From NCBI GenBank assembly GCA_945787445.1, contig CALZHT010000061.1, positions 1 through 48,898 of the forward strand: a stretch of DNA of 48,898 nucleotides. Reading direction: 5' to 3'. Below the pieces are notes generated by a model, which ran no database searches, had not been told where the DNA came from, and saw only the letters and a program-made list of their open reading frames with translations. A program made the translations under genes and the position numbers. This document shows positions 18,569 to 33,723 of the stretch, piece by piece. This stretch comes from an uncultured Desulfobulbaceae bacterium (lineage in GTDB: Bacteria; Desulfobacterota; Desulfobulbia; Desulfobulbales; CALZHT01). Positions within the stretch are counted from its first letter, which is position 1. Every line of letters begins with the position of its first letter.

Positions 18569-18750
18569 CTAGTCCGCATTTCTCACAAAGGTCGTAGCGA
18601 GATGCCGGAAAGTGTCGTGGATACAAGGCGCGGGAAGGAAAATACCCGCAGGCGTACTTTCAGTACGTTGAGGATGTTTTTCGAGCGCAACGCAGTAGAC
18701 GCAATACTTTCCGGCATCGCAGTAGATCGCTTGTGAGAAATGCGGACTAG
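18569..18750. repeat. 182-bp palindromic element, copy A, with perfect 20-bp terminal inverted repeats
   Basis: CTAGTCCGCATTTCTCACAA (18569-18588) is the exact reverse complement of 18731-18750. A second inner arm pairs GATGCCGGAAAGT (from 18601) with ACTTTCCGGCATC. The exact centre is a hairpin CGTACT-ttc-AGTACG (18653-18667). The right end overlaps the stop codon of the selenocytochrome gene (18747-18749). No transposase is encoded, so it is either a miniature element or a long hairpin acting at the 3' ends of converging genes. Confidence 0.85.
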
Positions 18751-20342
18751 TGGGTGACTAACTTCAAATCCTTTTGATAATCAAAGGTATCATCACGTTC
18801 CGGTGTATGGCAGCGTTGACAGATTTCCGGGGCCGGACGCTTTGGCAGTTTATGGTTCTTGGGATCTGTCGCATGTTTTTTGCCAGGGCTGTGGCACACC
18901 TCACATCCTACGTGATGAAGAGCCTCCGGCAATGAATAGGCATAGGGCTCATCCCCTGTTTCTACACCGGTAACATGACAGGGTATACATTTCATATTAT
19001 ATTGCTGCTGTCTTACCAGGAGAGTAATAAACGCCTTGGCGTGCCGGGTTTTCTTCCATGATGCAGACTGGTCCTTATGGCATGAAGCACAGGCCTTGTT
19101 GCCCACTAGATTGATCCCTTTGCCAAATGTCGGCAAAATCTTTTTGTTCTTGTTTTGCAAAGCCCTTTTTCTCCCCAACTCATTAACCTTTTTCTTGACG
19201 TCCTCCACGATGGCAAGCACATCTTTTTGATCAGGCAAAGTTTTTTCAAGGGCAATAAACTGGTTCTTAAAGGTGGCGCTTATTATTCTCTTATCCCGTT
19301 CCTGCTCAATGGCATCCTCGATTTTTTTCAGCTCCTTACCTGCTTCATCTCGCCGCCTGACCAGATCATTAAACACTTCCAGTTGCTTCGCGTCTGTTTT
19401 TTTAATTTGGGTGTAGCGTTTGATCTCCCAATCATACCTTTCAAACTCTCTTTGTTTCTGAATAAGCAAGGTGTTTCTATTATGCCCCCATACACTGGAC
19501 GGGCTCCAGTTAAATTCCAGAACCCCCATATATTTACCCTGTTTGAGGACCTGACACAGAACAGTATTATCGACCTGTTTGGGGTATTTATTTGAAGAAT
19601 GATGCATTGCCTGGATAATGATATGAATATCGGTAAATTTTTTGGCTATTTCATCATTCTGGCGGGCATCAAGGCTTGACAACAGCACAATGAGATCACT
19701 TTTTTTGGAGAGTTCTTTGACAAGACCAGGCAGGACATGAAGCCAGGGAATGACATGTGCATCATCCTTTTCCGTAAACGTATAAAAGGGGATTTTCCCG
19801 GTGATGCCGATAATGCCTACGGTGAGATCACCTATTTTCGTAAGAGTACTGGCAGGGAAAATAGCCTTGCCGGTTGACTTTCTGACAATGTTGGCGCTTA
19901 ACCAGGCAAATTTCGATTTTTCCCGGATCGCCGCCAGAAAATCCAGTCCGCCGGCAAGGTCCTCAGGCGCAATGCCGACCGCAGTATAGTTCATGAGATT
20001 GTACGCCTCGACAATACCCTGCGCCGTAACCAGTGCCTGTTCCTGACGGCCTGGGAACAAACGGTCATTATCGAACAGAAGGGCTCCTCCATCAAGAATA
20101 AGATAGGGTATATCCTTTGCCTTCTGGATCTCCTTAATCATGTGTGCTTTTTTGGACAGACCGCCCAATTGTCTGCTTTTTCAGCCGCAAGGCTCAGTTT
20201 CCCCAAGCACGCTGTTCGAGTAAAAAATCACGTTCTTTTGGTTTGCTGCACAAACAGGGCCAACTGAAAGCGCAAACACCAAAGAGGAAATAAGGAGAGC
20301 AATGATCAGGAAAATGCGAATACGATATGTCTTAGTAGTCAT
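18747..20342 (-). CDS. UshA-like multihaem c-type cytochrome, probable selenoprotein (UGA = Sec54)
   Basis: A minus-strand frame from ATG 20342 encodes a signal peptide (MTTKTYRIRIFLIIAL..., cleavage near VCA-A), then NVIFYSNSVLGETEPCG, an in-frame TGA at 20181-20183, and KSRQLGGLSKKAHMIKEI in the same frame to 18747. Relatives of this 5'-nucleotidase/UshA-like family carry CGC-x-x-x-Q-x-GGL at this spot, so TGA stands where a cysteine belongs. A SECIS-like hairpin lies just after it. Reading TGA as selenocysteine gives 531 residues: a metallophosphatase-like domain (about 38-290), a coiled coil (about 300-400) and four CXXCH haem motifs at 418 (CASCH), 452 (CIPCH), 480 (CEVCH) and 508 (CQRCH). 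The protein should be periplasmic and take part in electron transfer; the substrate is unknown. Starting at a TTG after the TGA would lose the signal peptide that haem attachment requires. Confidence 0.88.
20152..20168 (-). promoter_or_regulatory. Candidate bacterial SECIS hairpin
   Basis: On the mRNA, 12 nucleotides after the UGA, UUGGG pairs with UCCAA (five pairs, one a G-U) around the loop CGGUCUG. Known bacterial SECIS elements have a small apical loop with a G in its first two positions, about 16-37 nucleotides from the UGA. Here the loop starts about 17-18 nucleotides after UGA and contains GGUCUG, the same run as in the E. coli fdhF element. Confidence 0.7.
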
Positions 20343-20415: not shown

Positions 20416-21744
20416 TCATTGTGTCGATGCTTTTTTTCTGGTTTTGAGGATTTTTTTCCACTTTTCCAGCCGGTCTTTTATTACAGCTTCGTATCCCCTG
20501 TTGGTTGGATCGTAGAATCGCTTCCCTTTGATTTTATCAGGGAGATGATCCTGATCAACAACACCATCCGGATTGTCATGAGCATACTCATATCCCTTGC
20601 CGTATCCCAGATGTTTCATGAGTCCGGTAGGTGCATTTCGAATATGCAAAGGGACCGGCAGGCTGCCGGAACGGTCGATTTCCTGCTGCACCTTTTTGTA
20701 GGCAGAATAAACAGCGTTACTCTTGGCTGCCGTGGCAAGATAAATAACAGCCTGGGCAAGAGCTAACTCCCCTTCCGGTGAACCAAGCATATGGTAACTG
20801 TCTCGCGCACTAATGGCAATGGTCAAGGCCTGGGGATCAGCAACGCCGATATCCTCTGAAGCGAAACGGATGAGCCGTCTGGCAATATACAGCGGCTCCT
20901 CACCTGCCTTGAGCATACGACCAAGCCAGTAAAGAGCGCCGTCCGGATCACTGTCGCGCAAGCTCTTATGTAGGGCGGAAATCAGGTTGTAATGTTCCTC
21001 ACCATCTGCGTCGTAGCGCAAACTTTTCCGTTGGATCGCCTCTTCTGCCAAGACCAGCGATACCATGCGTTTGTCATCAACACCTACTTCAACAAGCGAT
21101 GCCGAAATCTCAAGACTGTTAAGAAGATTGCGTCCATCGCCGTCCGCCATTTTTATAAGGTGTTCAAGGGCCCCTTTTTCAAAGACCAGGTTGAAATCTC
21201 CCAAGCCTTTTTCTGTATCGCCAAGGGCCCTTTTAGCAATAATCAGTAGATCTTCATCATGTAGTGGGTTCAGGACAAGCACCCGGCAACGGGAAAGTAG
21301 AGGAGCGACTACCTGAAAAGAGGGATTTTCAGTGGTTGCGCCGATAAGGGTCAAAAGACCGCTTTCGACATGGGGAAGAAAGCCATCCTGCTGACTTTTG
21401 TTGAATCGGTGGATCTCATCCACAAAAAGTACAGTGGCGGCCCCCCTTTCTTCTTTTGCATCCCGGGCCTGAGACACTATCGCCCGTATCTCCTTCACCC
21501 CTGACAGCACTGCTGAAAAAAACACAAAGTCAGCCCCGGAGGTCCGGGCAAGGATGCGGGCAAGGGTAGTCTTGCCGGTACCCGGCGGACCCCAAAGGAT
21601 TAATGACGGCAAATATTTTTGCTGTATCAAACGGTCAAGTATTTTCCCTTTATCAAGCAGGTGCTGCTGACCAACAATATCCTCAATGCGGTCAGGCCGC
21701 ATGCGCTCGGCTAAAGGAATGGCACTTTTTGAAATTGACAGCAT
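20416..21744 (-). CDS. rarA: Replication-associated recombination protein RarA (MgsA), AAA+ ATPase
   Basis: The 442-residue protein matches the family in length and order. It has a start PLAERMRPDRIEDIVGQQHL, Walker A GPPGTGKT (about 52-59), Walker B LFVDEIHRFNKSQQD, sensor 1 GATTENPSF and arginine-finger LLSRCRV. A C-terminal tetramerisation part follows (ALYWLGRML, RRLIRFASEDIGVADP, HLGYGKGYEYAHDNPDG, YYDPTNRG-like FYDPTNRGYE). RarA acts at stalled replication forks with SSB and RecA. It is a single-gene unit, about 70 bases downstream (in transcription) of the start region of the selenocytochrome gene and in the same direction. Confidence 0.96.
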   Translation of the reverse strand: MLSISKSAIPLAERMRPDRIEDIVGQQHLLDKGKILDRLIQQKYLPSLILWGPPGTGKTTLARILARTSGADFVFFSAVLSGVKEIRAIVSQARDAKEERGAATVLFVDEIHRFNKSQQDGFLPHVESGLLTLIGATTENPSFQVVAPLLSRCRVLVLNPLHDEDLLIIAKRALGDTEKGLGDFNLVFEKGALEHLIKMADGDGRNLLNSLEISASLVEVGVDDKRMVSLVLAEEAIQRKSLRYDADGEEHYNLISALHKSLRDSDPDGALYWLGRMLKAGEEPLYIARRLIRFASEDIGVADPQALTIAISARDSYHMLGSPEGELALAQAVIYLATAAKSNAVYSAYKKVQQEIDRSGSLPVPLHIRNAPTGLMKHLGYGKGYEYAHDNPDGVVDQDHLPDKIKGKRFYDPTNRGYEAVIKDRLEKWKKILKTRKKASTQ

Positions 21745-27484: not shown

Positions 27485-28072
27485 TCATTTAAACATCTTA
27501 TGACAGTTTTTCCTCATGCGATTACTTTCTGCAACAAGGGCGGTGGCAGATTGATAATCTCCTGATGTTACGGCGTCCAGGCATTTTTTCATGGTGTCGC
27601 AACAGGAGAGCCATTCTTTTTCCCATGGCTTGCCGGCGTATGGGTTAGTGGTGATAAACCTCCGGAGGGCTGTGATATCTTCCTGGCCGGCGGCTTCCTG
27701 TTTAACAATTTTTGTTGAAACGGTTTTCCATAATTTATTTAAGTCTTTTTTTATTTTTTTGCTGTTGAGACCAGTTTTCTTTGGCGCTGGAAATGGTTTT
27801 CTTTGTTTTTCTTTGCGCGCTTTTTTGCTCGTAAATTTTTCCTTTCCTACAGCCGCGGCAACGGCACCTTTTTCAAGGTCCTTGTTGTCAAGCAAGGCTT
27901 CCAGCGAAAGTTCGATGGTGATTTTATCGCCTTTTACTTTTTTTTTAGTTTTAAAAAAGACAGGTCCACTGATATTTGCGAAATGGGCACCGACCCTGAT
28001 CTGTCCCTTGCTTAGTACATCAGCAAGAAGAGTAAGCTCTTCCACTATATCGTTAATATGTTTCTTGTCCAT
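27485..28072 (-). CDS. Hypothetical protein, weakly amphi-Trp-like N-terminus
   Basis: This 195-residue protein is not confidently recognised. Residues 1-60 (NDIVEELTLLADVLSKGQIR then VFFKTKKKVKGDKITIELSL) follow the strand and spacing pattern of small amphi-Trp-type domains, but without the tryptophans. A Lys-rich linker (about 83-110, KEKQRKPFPAPKK) leads to a helical C-terminal part with three cysteines (WLSCCDTMKKCLDAV). No signal peptide or membrane segment is seen. It is separated by 50 bases from the hydantoinase gene upstream on the same strand and may be co-transcribed with it. Confidence 0.65.
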   Translation of the reverse strand: MDKKHINDIVEELTLLADVLSKGQIRVGAHFANISGPVFFKTKKKVKGDKITIELSLEALLDNKDLEKGAVAAAVGKEKFTSKKARKEKQRKPFPAPKKTGLNSKKIKKDLNKLWKTVSTKIVKQEAAGQEDITALRRFITTNPYAGKPWEKEWLSCCDTMKKCLDAVTSGDYQSATALVAESNRMRKNCHKMFK

Positions 28073-30286: not shown

Positions 30287-30441
30287 CCTGAATCCGTGAA
30301 CGTTCGGTTCGTCAGAGGTCCGGATTCGCGAAGGGAATGAATTCGATTATCCTAGTGTGATATCGAAGAGTTCCCGACAGGTAAGCGAGCCTGCGAGACT
30401 CCGAAGCAGACGGGCCGCTGACGAACGCTCACGGATTCAGG
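30287..30441. repeat. 155-bp imperfect palindromic element, copy C
   Basis: The end CCTGAATCCGTGAACGTTCG (30287-30306) matches the reverse complement of the right end with one mismatch; TCAG arms also pair further in. A central inverted pair TCGAT / ATCGA (30343-30366) lies near the midpoint. The right end overlaps the stop codon of the PP2C gene (30437-30439), just as copy A overlaps the selenocytochrome stop. It sits in the 320-base gap between the hydantoinase and the PP2C gene. No gene is encoded. Confidence 0.75.
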
Positions 30442-31225
30442 AAAACACAACAAGGGCGGTAATATTATCGAGCCCTCCGGCGGCATTAGCCATGTCGACT
30501 AAGCTGTCTACGGCATTTTGCGGGGTTGGCGATTCTTTAAGCACTTGATGCATTTTTGCATCGTCAATCATTGACCACAGCCCATCTGAACAGAGTAGCA
30601 ATTTCGCCTCGGGCGGGAGTTCTTCACAATGATACTCAGGATCTTCAGGAAATGGAAAGCCTATTGCTCTGGTGACCACATGCCTTGTGGGCACAAGAGT
30701 TGACACCGTATCACTGTTAAGCGTATCGGTTGCATAATTTGCCGCCACGGTATGGTCGTTGGTAATCTGTTTCATTTCACCACCAGCAGCAAGGTAGCAT
30801 CGGGCATCTCCAACATGACAGGTATGCAGCTTCTTGTTTTCTATCATGCAGGCAACCAAAGTACAGCCCATGCCCCGCAAATCATGATCAGTTGCCGCAA
30901 CCTTTATGACCTTATCATTGGCAATCCGAAAGGAGGTTATGAGAGAGTGTCTCACCTCTTCAGGATTTTTAAAAACCTGACACCATTTTTTGGAAAAAAA
31001 ACGCACCATTGTCTCAATCGCAACCCTACTGGCAATCTCGCCGGCATTATGACCTCCCATGCCGTCGGCAACAATAAAAATCCCCTTGTCTTCCATAAAA
31101 TGAAACGCATCTTCGTTTTTCTTTCTGACTTTACCGATATCCGTCTGTCCGGCGCATTGAAATTTCGTTTGCTGAAATAAGCAAAAAATCCAGCGCCCAA
31201 CATTTTTTAAAAAATCTACCATCAT
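30437..31225 (-). CDS. PP2C-family serine/threonine phosphatase
   Basis: The 262-residue protein has the PP2C metal-site motifs in order: QTDIGKVRKKNEDAF (Asp and Glu), VADGMGGHNAGEIAS (Asp, Gly), LLCSDGLWSMIDD and DNITALVV. The catalytic domain spans about 20-262 and no output domain is attached. These Mn/Mg-dependent enzymes reverse phosphorylation by Hanks-type kinases. The kinase gene lies 47 bases upstream on the same strand, and an FHA gene precedes that. The set is therefore a likely signalling module. The stop codon is within palindrome C. Confidence 0.93.
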   Translation of the reverse strand: MMVDFLKNVGRWIFCLFQQTKFQCAGQTDIGKVRKKNEDAFHFMEDKGIFIVADGMGGHNAGEIASRVAIETMVRFFSKKWCQVFKNPEEVRHSLITSFRIANDKVIKVAATDHDLRGMGCTLVACMIENKKLHTCHVGDARCYLAAGGEMKQITNDHTVAANYATDTLNSDTVSTLVPTRHVVTRAIGFPFPEDPEYHCEELPPEAKLLLCSDGLWSMIDDAKMHQVLKESPTPQNAVDSLVDMANAAGGLDNITALVVFS

Positions 31226-31272
31226 AAGCTCGCAATTATTCTGAAATAATAGGGATTATGCGTCACCAGACC

Positions 31273-33723
31273 TTACTGAAACTGTAGTTTATAAATAATA
31301 TTCCAAAGCAACACAGCACCGTCCCTTCTGCCGGCAAAAAAGGTATGGGGCCTAGGGCCAGGAGCAAGAGAGGTGATGCCGTCACCACGGCCGTCGAGCG
31401 TAAGTATGCTTGTCCCGCTTTCTGCATGCCATAGCTGGACAATATCGTCTTCACTGCCCGAGACTAAGGTTTTGAGATCAGGGAGCATGAGTACCGAGGT
31501 AATTACCTCATCATTAGACGCAATAGTGTTTATGCAGCGGCCTGTCGGTGTGTCCCAAAACTTAATATGGCAGTCCTCGCCGATTGATATAAATCTCCGG
31601 CCCGATGGTTCTGAAGATATGGTAATAATCGGAAGTCCGTGCGCCTCAATTATCCTGACACATTCTTTACCTCCGGCCTCCCAAAAACGTAAGCGCCCGT
31701 CTTCGCTTCCAGTTACCATATCAAGCTGCTTATTAACAAAAACAACGGATCGGATAGAACCACCCTTTACAATGGAAACTGTTTTTTCTACACCTGAGTC
31801 AATACCTCTAATCTTCAAGGACCCGTCTTCACTGCCCGAGGCAAGACCGCGGCCGTCAGGTGTGAACGTCAAGGCAGAAACCGGTGCATCATGCTTGATT
31901 CCGGCGGTAATACTTTGACCAAGCTTCACAGCCCATAAATATACGGAACCATCATCATGTCCCACTGCCAGCCTCTCACCGTCGGGCGAAACCGCAAGGG
32001 ACCTGACAGGTTGGTTCTTTTTACCGAAAACTTCCCTGTCCTCTGATTTCTTGAAGTCACGAATATATATTTTGCTATCCTGATCTACACAAGCAATAGT
32101 ATTGGTTCCAGGAATATACGCCAAATAATCTGCTGGTTGGCCTGAGCCTTTAAGGGTAAGCAAACGCTGTCCACCAACCACCGAATTTTTCTCTCCTTTT
32201 ACCACTATCTTTTCATAGGCTTTGTTCAATATTGTGTCTTTCTTAAAGCCGTTGTTTCGCCAAGCCGTTAAGATTACTTTAAAACATTCCTCATGCTGGT
32301 TTCTCTCCATGAGACTCAAGACATTTCTCTGAACGGAACGATGGAGCTGGCTTTCACGGAATATTTCCAAAGTCACCTTGGGTATGCAAAGACGATATTC
32401 CGGGAATGTTTCTCTTGTAACATGGTGTCCTTTTTTTTCAGCATCACGGTCTTTTTTGAGTTCTTCGACAAGGTCATCCAGAAGAGCGATTTGGGGCGCG
32501 CGTTTTTTGGTTGCTTCAATATGCCGCAATATTCTAGCGGGGGAAGTGGAACCCTGCCGCCATTTATAAACAAGGCGGTTGTGGATGGCTTCCGGGAGAA
32601 GATCATTAATTTCCAATGCCTGATTCAAGCAGGCATAGGCTTCCTTAGTTTTGCGCAGCTCAAAAAGAGAAACTGCGCGGTTGTTAAGGCTGTCCGCTCT
32701 GAGATCGATATTATCCAATTCGGCATAAGGGGATGAAACGCCGAACAGCGCCTTATGTGCCTCATTTAAGACTTTTCGAATAGAAGCAAAATCGCTAAAC
32801 CGGTCTTCACGATCATAGGCGACACATTTCTTCAGCAGATTCACCAGAACAGGGGGAAAGGCAACCGCAGGAATAAAGGGCACCGGCTCCGGAATATCAT
32901 GTTTTACGATATTTTTTATAAAAGGTTTTTTACCACATAGCATCAACCATAGACAGAGTCCGAATGAAAAAATATCCGTCCGTTGATCCACGTCATGAGC
33001 GCTCCGCAGTTGTTCAGGAGAAGCATAGCCGGGGGTGCCTCGGAATCCGACAGTTGCATTGTTATCGGCTTGCCAGATATCTGTCGCCTCATTTTCTTCA
33101 ACTTCTTCTTCTTCACCCTTGTGGAGCAGTATGCCGAAATCAGTTATTTTCAGAAGGGCGTTTTTGGTGACAAGAATGTTTTGCGGTTTTATGTCACGAT
33201 GAATAATCCCTCGCGAATGGGTATATTCCATACCATGACAAAACTGGATAGCAAGAGAAAGACTGGTTCGTAGATCCTTGCATCTTCCGGCTTTTATCCA
33301 TTCATCAAGGCTGCCGCCATCAATGAATTCAATGAAAAGATGGGGAATTTTTTCGATAGCCAACACATAATAACATGCCGCAACGTTCGGGTGCATACCC
33401 ATCTTGATCCAGGCACTCGCCTCCATGAGAATTCGCTTCATCCCCTCCCGATCAGCAAGAACCTCAGGCTTGGGTGATTTGATAGCCATCTTGATCGCCC
33501 AACCCAGATGCTCTGAGATAAAAACCTTTCCCATGGAGCCGGACATTACGTTTTCCACCTTGTACCTGTCCATTATCACGTCACCAGGCTTCCAGTCAGG
33601 ACTGAAAAAACCTTTTTTGTGTAAGGAGACGACAGGAGGAGTTTGCGATGGTTTATCGTGGAGAGGGAGTGCTTGTGCACCCTTTTTTGACTTTGAAAAT
33701 TTATTCTTGAGGCGACTGAACAT
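31273..33723 (-). CDS. Hanks-type Ser/Thr kinase with TPR-like middle and C-terminal WD40 repeats
   Basis: The protein has 816 residues. The kinase domain (about 48-330) carries a Gly-loop (VMSGSMGKV), Lys in AIKSPKP, catalytic HRDIKPQN, TDFG and an APE-like CASPEQ (YASPEQ). It is followed by a TPR-like region (DSLNNRAVSLFELRKTKEAY, CLNQALEINDLLPEA) at about 350-400 and a beta-propeller from about 525 to 816 with WD40 phrases (RSLAVSPDGERLAVGHDDGS, FTPDGRGLASGSEDGSLKI, GSEDDIVQLW). No transmembrane segment is seen, so it is cytoplasmic. The propeller probably recruits a substrate or scaffold. The gene sits between FHA and PP2C genes, giving a kinase, phosphatase and phospho-binding set. Confidence 0.93.
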   Translation of the reverse strand: MFSRLKNKFSKSKKGAQALPLHDKPSQTPPVVSLHKKGFFSPDWKPGDVIMDRYKVENVMSGSMGKVFISEHLGWAIKMAIKSPKPEVLADREGMKRILMEASAWIKMGMHPNVAACYYVLAIEKIPHLFIEFIDGGSLDEWIKAGRCKDLRTSLSLAIQFCHGMEYTHSRGIIHRDIKPQNILVTKNALLKITDFGILLHKGEEEEVEENEATDIWQADNNATVGFRGTPGYASPEQLRSAHDVDQRTDIFSFGLCLWLMLCGKKPFIKNIVKHDIPEPVPFIPAVAFPPVLVNLLKKCVAYDREDRFSDFASIRKVLNEAHKALFGVSSPYAELDNIDLRADSLNNRAVSLFELRKTKEAYACLNQALEINDLLPEAIHNRLVYKWRQGSTSPARILRHIEATKKRAPQIALLDDLVEELKKDRDAEKKGHHVTRETFPEYRLCIPKVTLEIFRESQLHRSVQRNVLSLMERNQHEECFKVILTAWRNNGFKKDTILNKAYEKIVVKGEKNSVVGGQRLLTLKGSGQPADYLAYIPGTNTIACVDQDSKIYIRDFKKSEDREVFGKKNQPVRSLAVSPDGERLAVGHDDGSVYLWAVKLGQSITAGIKHDAPVSALTFTPDGRGLASGSEDGSLKIRGIDSGVEKTVSIVKGGSIRSVVFVNKQLDMVTGSEDGRLRFWEAGGKECVRIIEAHGLPIITISSEPSGRRFISIGEDCHIKFWDTPTGRCINTIASNDEVITSVLMLPDLKTLVSGSEDDIVQLWHAESGTSILTLDGRGDGITSLAPGPRPHTFFAGRRDGAVLLWNIIYKLQFQ

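Follow-up and report, generated by a model that had tools for sequence, protein, structure and literature searches.

The main finding of this study is that the gene at 18747-20342 on the minus strand of the window—the 48,898-nucleotide stretch of DNA from an uncultured Desulfobulbaceae bacterium that was analysed here—is very probably a new member of NF041198, an already known family of selenoproteins, complete with selenocysteine (Sec) decoding. At its codon 54, a UGA is almost certainly read as Sec, with SelB and tRNA-Sec acting through a SECIS hairpin predicted immediately downstream. The phenomenon is known, and the gene is a clean instance of it. The decoding is confirmed by comparative evidence, to which a clade contributes that lacks the Sec machinery, carries Cys and shows a hairpin that is weak or absent. 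The function of the family could matter more, because these proteins are widespread and because the loss of metal ligands together with the retention of Sec amounts to a testable idea.

The gene, its product and its family

Translation of the frame from 20342 to 18747 on the minus strand reveals a single internal stop, the TGA at 20181-20183 (read as 20183-20181), which falls at residue 54 of 531 in the context EPCG-U-KSRQLGGL, before the frame closes with TAG. This agrees with the preliminary description, in which the frame was open except for that codon. The residues encoded before the TGA do resemble an export signal, as had been claimed: residues 1-33 contain a hydrophobic stretch with a likely cleavage site predicted after VCA. 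With a standard ORF finder, the frame begins at TTG 20168, comprises 473 aa and lacks this N-terminal signal, which is the truncation that had been anticipated for gene callers. Programs that stop at UGA drop the signal peptide and would misplace the cytochrome to the cytoplasm. Four CXXCH motifs are found at residues 418-422, 452-456, 480-484 and 508-512, and this part of the protein matches the Pfam domain PF13435 (Cytochrome_C554) with 45.8 bits against a cut-off of 20.8. The translated sequence strongly implies that the protein is exported via its N-terminal signal and that four c-type haems are covalently attached to it. Coordinates of all features are collected in Table 1.

Table 1. Features of the UshA-like gene and its upstream neighbour, in window positions
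Feature	Position	Strand	Basis and remarks
UshA-like tetrahaem selenoprotein (very probable), complete gene	18747..20342	-	ATG 20342 to TAG 18747, 531 aa, Sec54; translation and NCBIfam NF041198, 596 bits
Probable signal peptide, residues 1-33	20244..20342	-	Read from translation; helix 6-26 in AlphaFold2 model
UGA, almost certainly Sec54, in motif PCGU	20181..20183	-	Translation; Sec/Cys exchange among homologues
SECIS-type hairpin	20152..20168	-	6-bp stem UUGGGC/GUCCAA, loop GGUCU, loop start 18 nt past UGA; criteria from PMC13188914 Fig 2A
Domain with UshA/5'-nucleotidase-like metallophosphoesterase fold (residues 34-289, approximate)	19476..20243	-	PDB nucleotidase profile match, Foldseek 1hp1/1ush (E about 1e-19), column counts; metal ligands mostly lost
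Long helical linker, helices 289-312, 318-350 and 373-399	19146..19475	-	AlphaFold2 model
Tetrahaem domain, four CXXCH	18807..19091	-	Cytochrome_C554 match; haem Cys/His nearly invariant
RarA-like AAA+ ATPase gene	20416..21744	-	Next gene upstream, same strand; neighbour conserved within the order

The full-length product scores 596.4 bits against the NCBIfam model NF041198 (UshA_like_PCGU, UshA-like (seleno)protein; cut-off 275), so the statement in the preliminary description that NCBI uses this name was correct. The match spans residues 30-523 and positions 17-519 of the 519 in the model, haem domain included, and nearly all of the members that we retrieved carry four CXXCH motifs. The four-haem fusion, which had been thought less familiar, is thus the normal architecture of the family. 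Within the family motif PCG[U/C], in which Sec and Cys exchange, the window protein has PCGU, and it differs from most members in that it also lacks the Asp of DxH (here NSVL). Selenoproteins of this kind have been recognised before: COG0737 UshA-like proteins already appeared as a selenoprotein family in a 2008 ocean survey (PMC2398784), and the UshA-like family, with the motif CxU, is among the known selenoprotein families in a 2026 review (PMC13188914). At E <= 1e-30, matches to the family occur in 228 of the 258 genomes from the class to which the window belongs and, in a sample of the whole phylum, in 171 of 395; most family members among the matches listed have exactly one internal TGA. 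A single-protein scan of the genome contigs gave no confirmed relative; relatives did emerge from the search across genomes.

The window protein also resembles several other groups, each in part. NF049981 (UshA-like (seleno)protein family 2), for which the motif is CxxU (PMC13188914), has the same scaffold with Sec near the same point, but the window protein scores only 38.8 bits against its cut-off of 140 and the model is limited to 262 positions. The tetrahaem domain is shared with cytochrome c554 (PF13435; 1bvb was also matched), whereas here it is fused behind an UshA-like selenoprotein domain. ExtKL of Geobacter (NF040886) is likewise a multihaem protein with one Sec, but the score is 20 bits against a cut-off of 250 and the likeness is confined to the haem part.

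Reading of the in-frame UGA

The exchange of codons among relatives is the first line of evidence for Sec. The codon at 99 distinct homologous sites is TGA in 76, TGC in 16, TGT in 5, CGA in 1 and ACT in 1, which amounts to Cys at 21 sites and other residues at 2, and Cys52, Gly53 and Cys/Sec54 are nearly invariant in the family. The own genome of the window (96% complete) encodes the full machinery, namely selB (356 bits), selA (638 bits), selD (340 bits) and a tRNA-Sec (71.5 bits) with the anticodon TCA (UCA). The two checks put forward in the preliminary description, a search for Sec or Cys at residue 54 of the homologues and a search for the Sec genes in the genome, therefore both gave the result expected of a selenoprotein. 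Every one of the 19 Sec genomes examined has either tRNA-Sec (18 genomes) or at least selB, six of them having selB missed at E <= 1e-60 though tRNA-Sec was found. All five genomes of the genus g20, on the other hand, are without selB and tRNA-Sec, and all carry TGC or TGT at the site. These genomes are a single clade and hence probably a single event, but the pattern is as the Sec reading predicts.

Two further observations concern Sec in these genomes. The selD gene in the own genome (L037, contig C85) is itself interrupted by an in-frame TGA (LARTCG*AAK), making it a second likely selenoprotein gene there. In the single CGA case (L084, genome G365), PSGR replaces PCGU; Cys and Sec are both gone, yet the genome keeps selB and tRNA-Sec.

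The RNA that follows the UGA provides another line of evidence. Bacterial SECIS rules call for a loop of 3-9 nt, a stem of 4-16 bp, a G among the first two loop bases and a distance of 16-37 nt from the UGA (PMC13188914 Fig 2A). The hairpin of the window begins 12 nt after the UGA and has a 5-nt loop, a 6-bp stem, an early loop G and a spacing of 18 nt, so the earlier statement that it fits these rules holds for all four of them. Its energy on its own is -6.4 kcal/mol, weaker than a published filter of -7.5 (PMC13188914). A 57-nt stretch folds at -10.1 kcal/mol, but its lowest-energy fold differs from the hairpin, and the single-sequence fold of these 57 nt is not significant (z = -0.21); the centroid is nevertheless the hairpin. 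Rfam at gathering score gave nothing in the window, and a permissive Rfam search of 20050-20260 gave chance-level matches only.

Comparison across homologues is more telling. At the 76 Sec sites, the mean number of stem pairs is 5.70 of 6, whereas 200 recodings with synonymous codons gave 3.95 (sd 0.12, maximum 4.30), while 17 non-Sec homologues have a mean of 4.24 against 3.88 (sd 0.24) when recoded, with no clear excess. Pairing above the synonymous null at Sec sites and not at non-Sec sites indicates a constraint on the RNA that goes with the UGA. The remnant hairpin is weak in two Cys members of g20 (-0.8 kcal/mol in L045 and -2.0 in L048). This test excludes L109 and L112-L116, which are out of register in the alignment. 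Mann-Whitney values are uncorrected for relatedness, and the argument is carried by the synonymous-recoding null and by the genus without Sec.

Two other readings of the codon have to be weighed against this evidence. If the UGA were a real stop, a short exported peptide would end at residue 53 and the remainder would be a separate or broken gene, through pseudogenisation or a sequencing error. The 473-aa frame from TTG 20168 returned by the ORF finder and the unremarkable single-sequence fold after the UGA would suit such a stop, which is nonetheless highly improbable, given that 76 of the 99 distinct sites, spread across the phylum, have TGA in the same column, that most members among the matches listed contain exactly one internal TGA, that the protein is conserved on either side of it and that the hairpin is kept beyond what codon constraint explains. 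Alternatively, an altered code or a suppressor could insert another amino acid such as Trp, since any sense reading would open the frame. To this we attach almost no weight, because the alternatives in relatives are TGC and TGT (Cys) and never TGG, because the genome has the full Sec machinery and because the genus without that machinery has Cys at the site. The initial proposal that the UGA encodes Sec is thus supported by codon exchange, decoding machinery and hairpin conservation.

Scaffold, haems and possible function

A structural model supports the UshA-like fold, and a count of conserved columns shows that most of its metal ligands are gone. The AlphaFold2 model, built with 45 relatives, has a mean pLDDT of 89 and a pTM of 0.84. 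Foldseek against the PDB places E. coli UshA first (1hp1, E 8e-20), followed by other 5'-nucleotidases, mainly through the N-terminal domain; the TM score to 1hp1 is 0.40 across the whole query since the N-terminal domain alone matches. Ligand columns were placed by alignments to solved nucleotidases (PDB profile match) and counted over 45 members at the DxH, GD, GNHE, SH and GHxH positions, which are the established metal ligands of UshA-type enzymes. Of the DxH residues, Asp persists in 36 members and His in 5. The Asp of GD is present in 4, the Asn of GNHE in none and the His of SH in 4, and in the last motif, GHxH, the two positions are occupied by His in 5 and 3 members. At these columns the window protein reads S44, L46, A87, P126, S223 and M246, and its sole candidate ligand is H248, in the last column. 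The invariant Asp84 was considered as a metal ligand and rejected, as it aligns to the non-ligand first Asp of DAGD. Because most of the residues that bind the two catalytic metals have been lost, the UshA-like domain is probably not a nucleotidase.

E. coli UshA (1ush, 1hp1) shares the fold of the N-terminal domain, with a weak sequence match, whereas the window protein is without most of the metal ligands and has a tetrahaem domain where UshA has its C-terminal nucleotidase domain. The thiosulfohydrolase SoxB (TIGR04486) is a distant sequence relative, but its metal site is not conserved here and the score of 55.4 bits is far under the cut-off of 550.

The haem part is, by contrast with the metal site, well kept: the haem Cys and His residues are nearly invariant in the family, and two further nearly invariant His residues (434 and 490) could serve as distal haem ligands. 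The haems are not universal in the wider group. At 20 further loci there are shorter, haem-free members, all with one TGA near the same point and with Sec in the contexts CGU, CPTU, CPGU or SGU, and no separate tetrahaem gene was found beside them at nearly all of these 20 loci. As these relatives keep Sec even where Cys52 has moved (CPTU) or become Ser (SGU), Sec is more constant than either the Cys or the haems. A requirement for Cys52 and for the haems becomes less likely on this evidence, and the case for Sec as the working residue becomes stronger. Neither the haems nor Cys52 is essential to the role of Sec in the wider group. The relatives L183-L196 form a haem-free set with Sec in CPTU, CPGU or SGU and with the metal motifs missing, and possibly include NF049981.

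Our limited literature search found no function assigned to the NF041198 family. We tentatively propose, with somewhat less than even confidence, that the window protein is an exported selenol redox protein built on a dead phosphoesterase scaffold and that it exchanges electrons with its own haems. After export through the N-terminal signal and covalent attachment of four c-type haems, Cys52-Gly-Sec54 would act as a thiol/selenol redox pair (a selenenylsulfide/selenol couple), on a former phosphoesterase scaffold that would have lost phosphoester hydrolysis. Electrons would pass, through this pair, between a small substrate in the periplasm and the haems of the same protein. The substrate may be an oxidised sulfur or selenium compound, and such compounds are the first candidates because of the distant relation to SoxB. 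A broader and more speculative extension, which we hold with slightly less conviction, is that the whole UshA-like selenoprotein group is a class of redox enzymes on a phosphoesterase scaffold without a metal site, in which Sec, more constant than the Cys or the haems, took over as the reactive group, and in which the tetrahaem form would wire the selenol site directly to the periplasmic cytochrome network.

Two other functions are conceivable, and we consider both unlikely. The UshA-like domain could still be a phosphoesterase or a SoxB-like thiosulfohydrolase in which Sec would aid hydrolysis or metal binding rather than redox chemistry. The weak SoxB match (55 bits against 550) and the Asp of DxH in 36 of 45 members are in keeping with such a hydrolase, but across the family few or no members keep the His of DxH, the Asp of GD, the Asn of GNHE or the His of SH, the window protein retains only H248 as a candidate ligand and a four-haem fusion suits redox chemistry. 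Alternatively, Sec54 and Cys52 might bind a metal or metalloid such as mercury or selenite, the protein being a carrier or a detoxifying reductase for which the haems supply electrons. A selenolate is a soft ligand, which would fit this role. So would the haem selenoprotein ExtKL of Geobacter, which has been proposed to act in selenite reduction (PMC5877670), although the recurrent neighbours of the gene are rarA and an inorganic pyrophosphatase, with no metal-resistance genes among them.

Gene neighbourhood and other features of the window

In the order to which the window belongs, rarA immediately precedes the UshA-like gene on the same strand at 22 of 41 sampled loci, always in that order, an arrangement that seems to be inherited rather than to reflect a functional link. 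A Mn-dependent inorganic pyrophosphatase gene is often convergent at the 3' end of the UshA-like gene across the order; in the window, it is absent within the stretch compared, while rarA is present. A 195-aa protein without Pfam or NCBIfam match, encoded at 27485-28072 (-), has counterparts close to the rarA/UshA-like locus of three other genomes.

Just downstream of the UshA-like gene, at 18600-18745 (-), lies a partly palindromic repeat of 146 bp. The genome has 16 complete or partial matches to it, counting the copy in the window, and the best other copy is 97% identical. It folds strongly (z -4.0) and is a MITE- or REP-like dispersed element. Further away, at 30437-33723 (-), a serine/threonine kinase with a WD40 propeller adjoins a PP2C-type phosphatase, forming a kinase-phosphatase pair.
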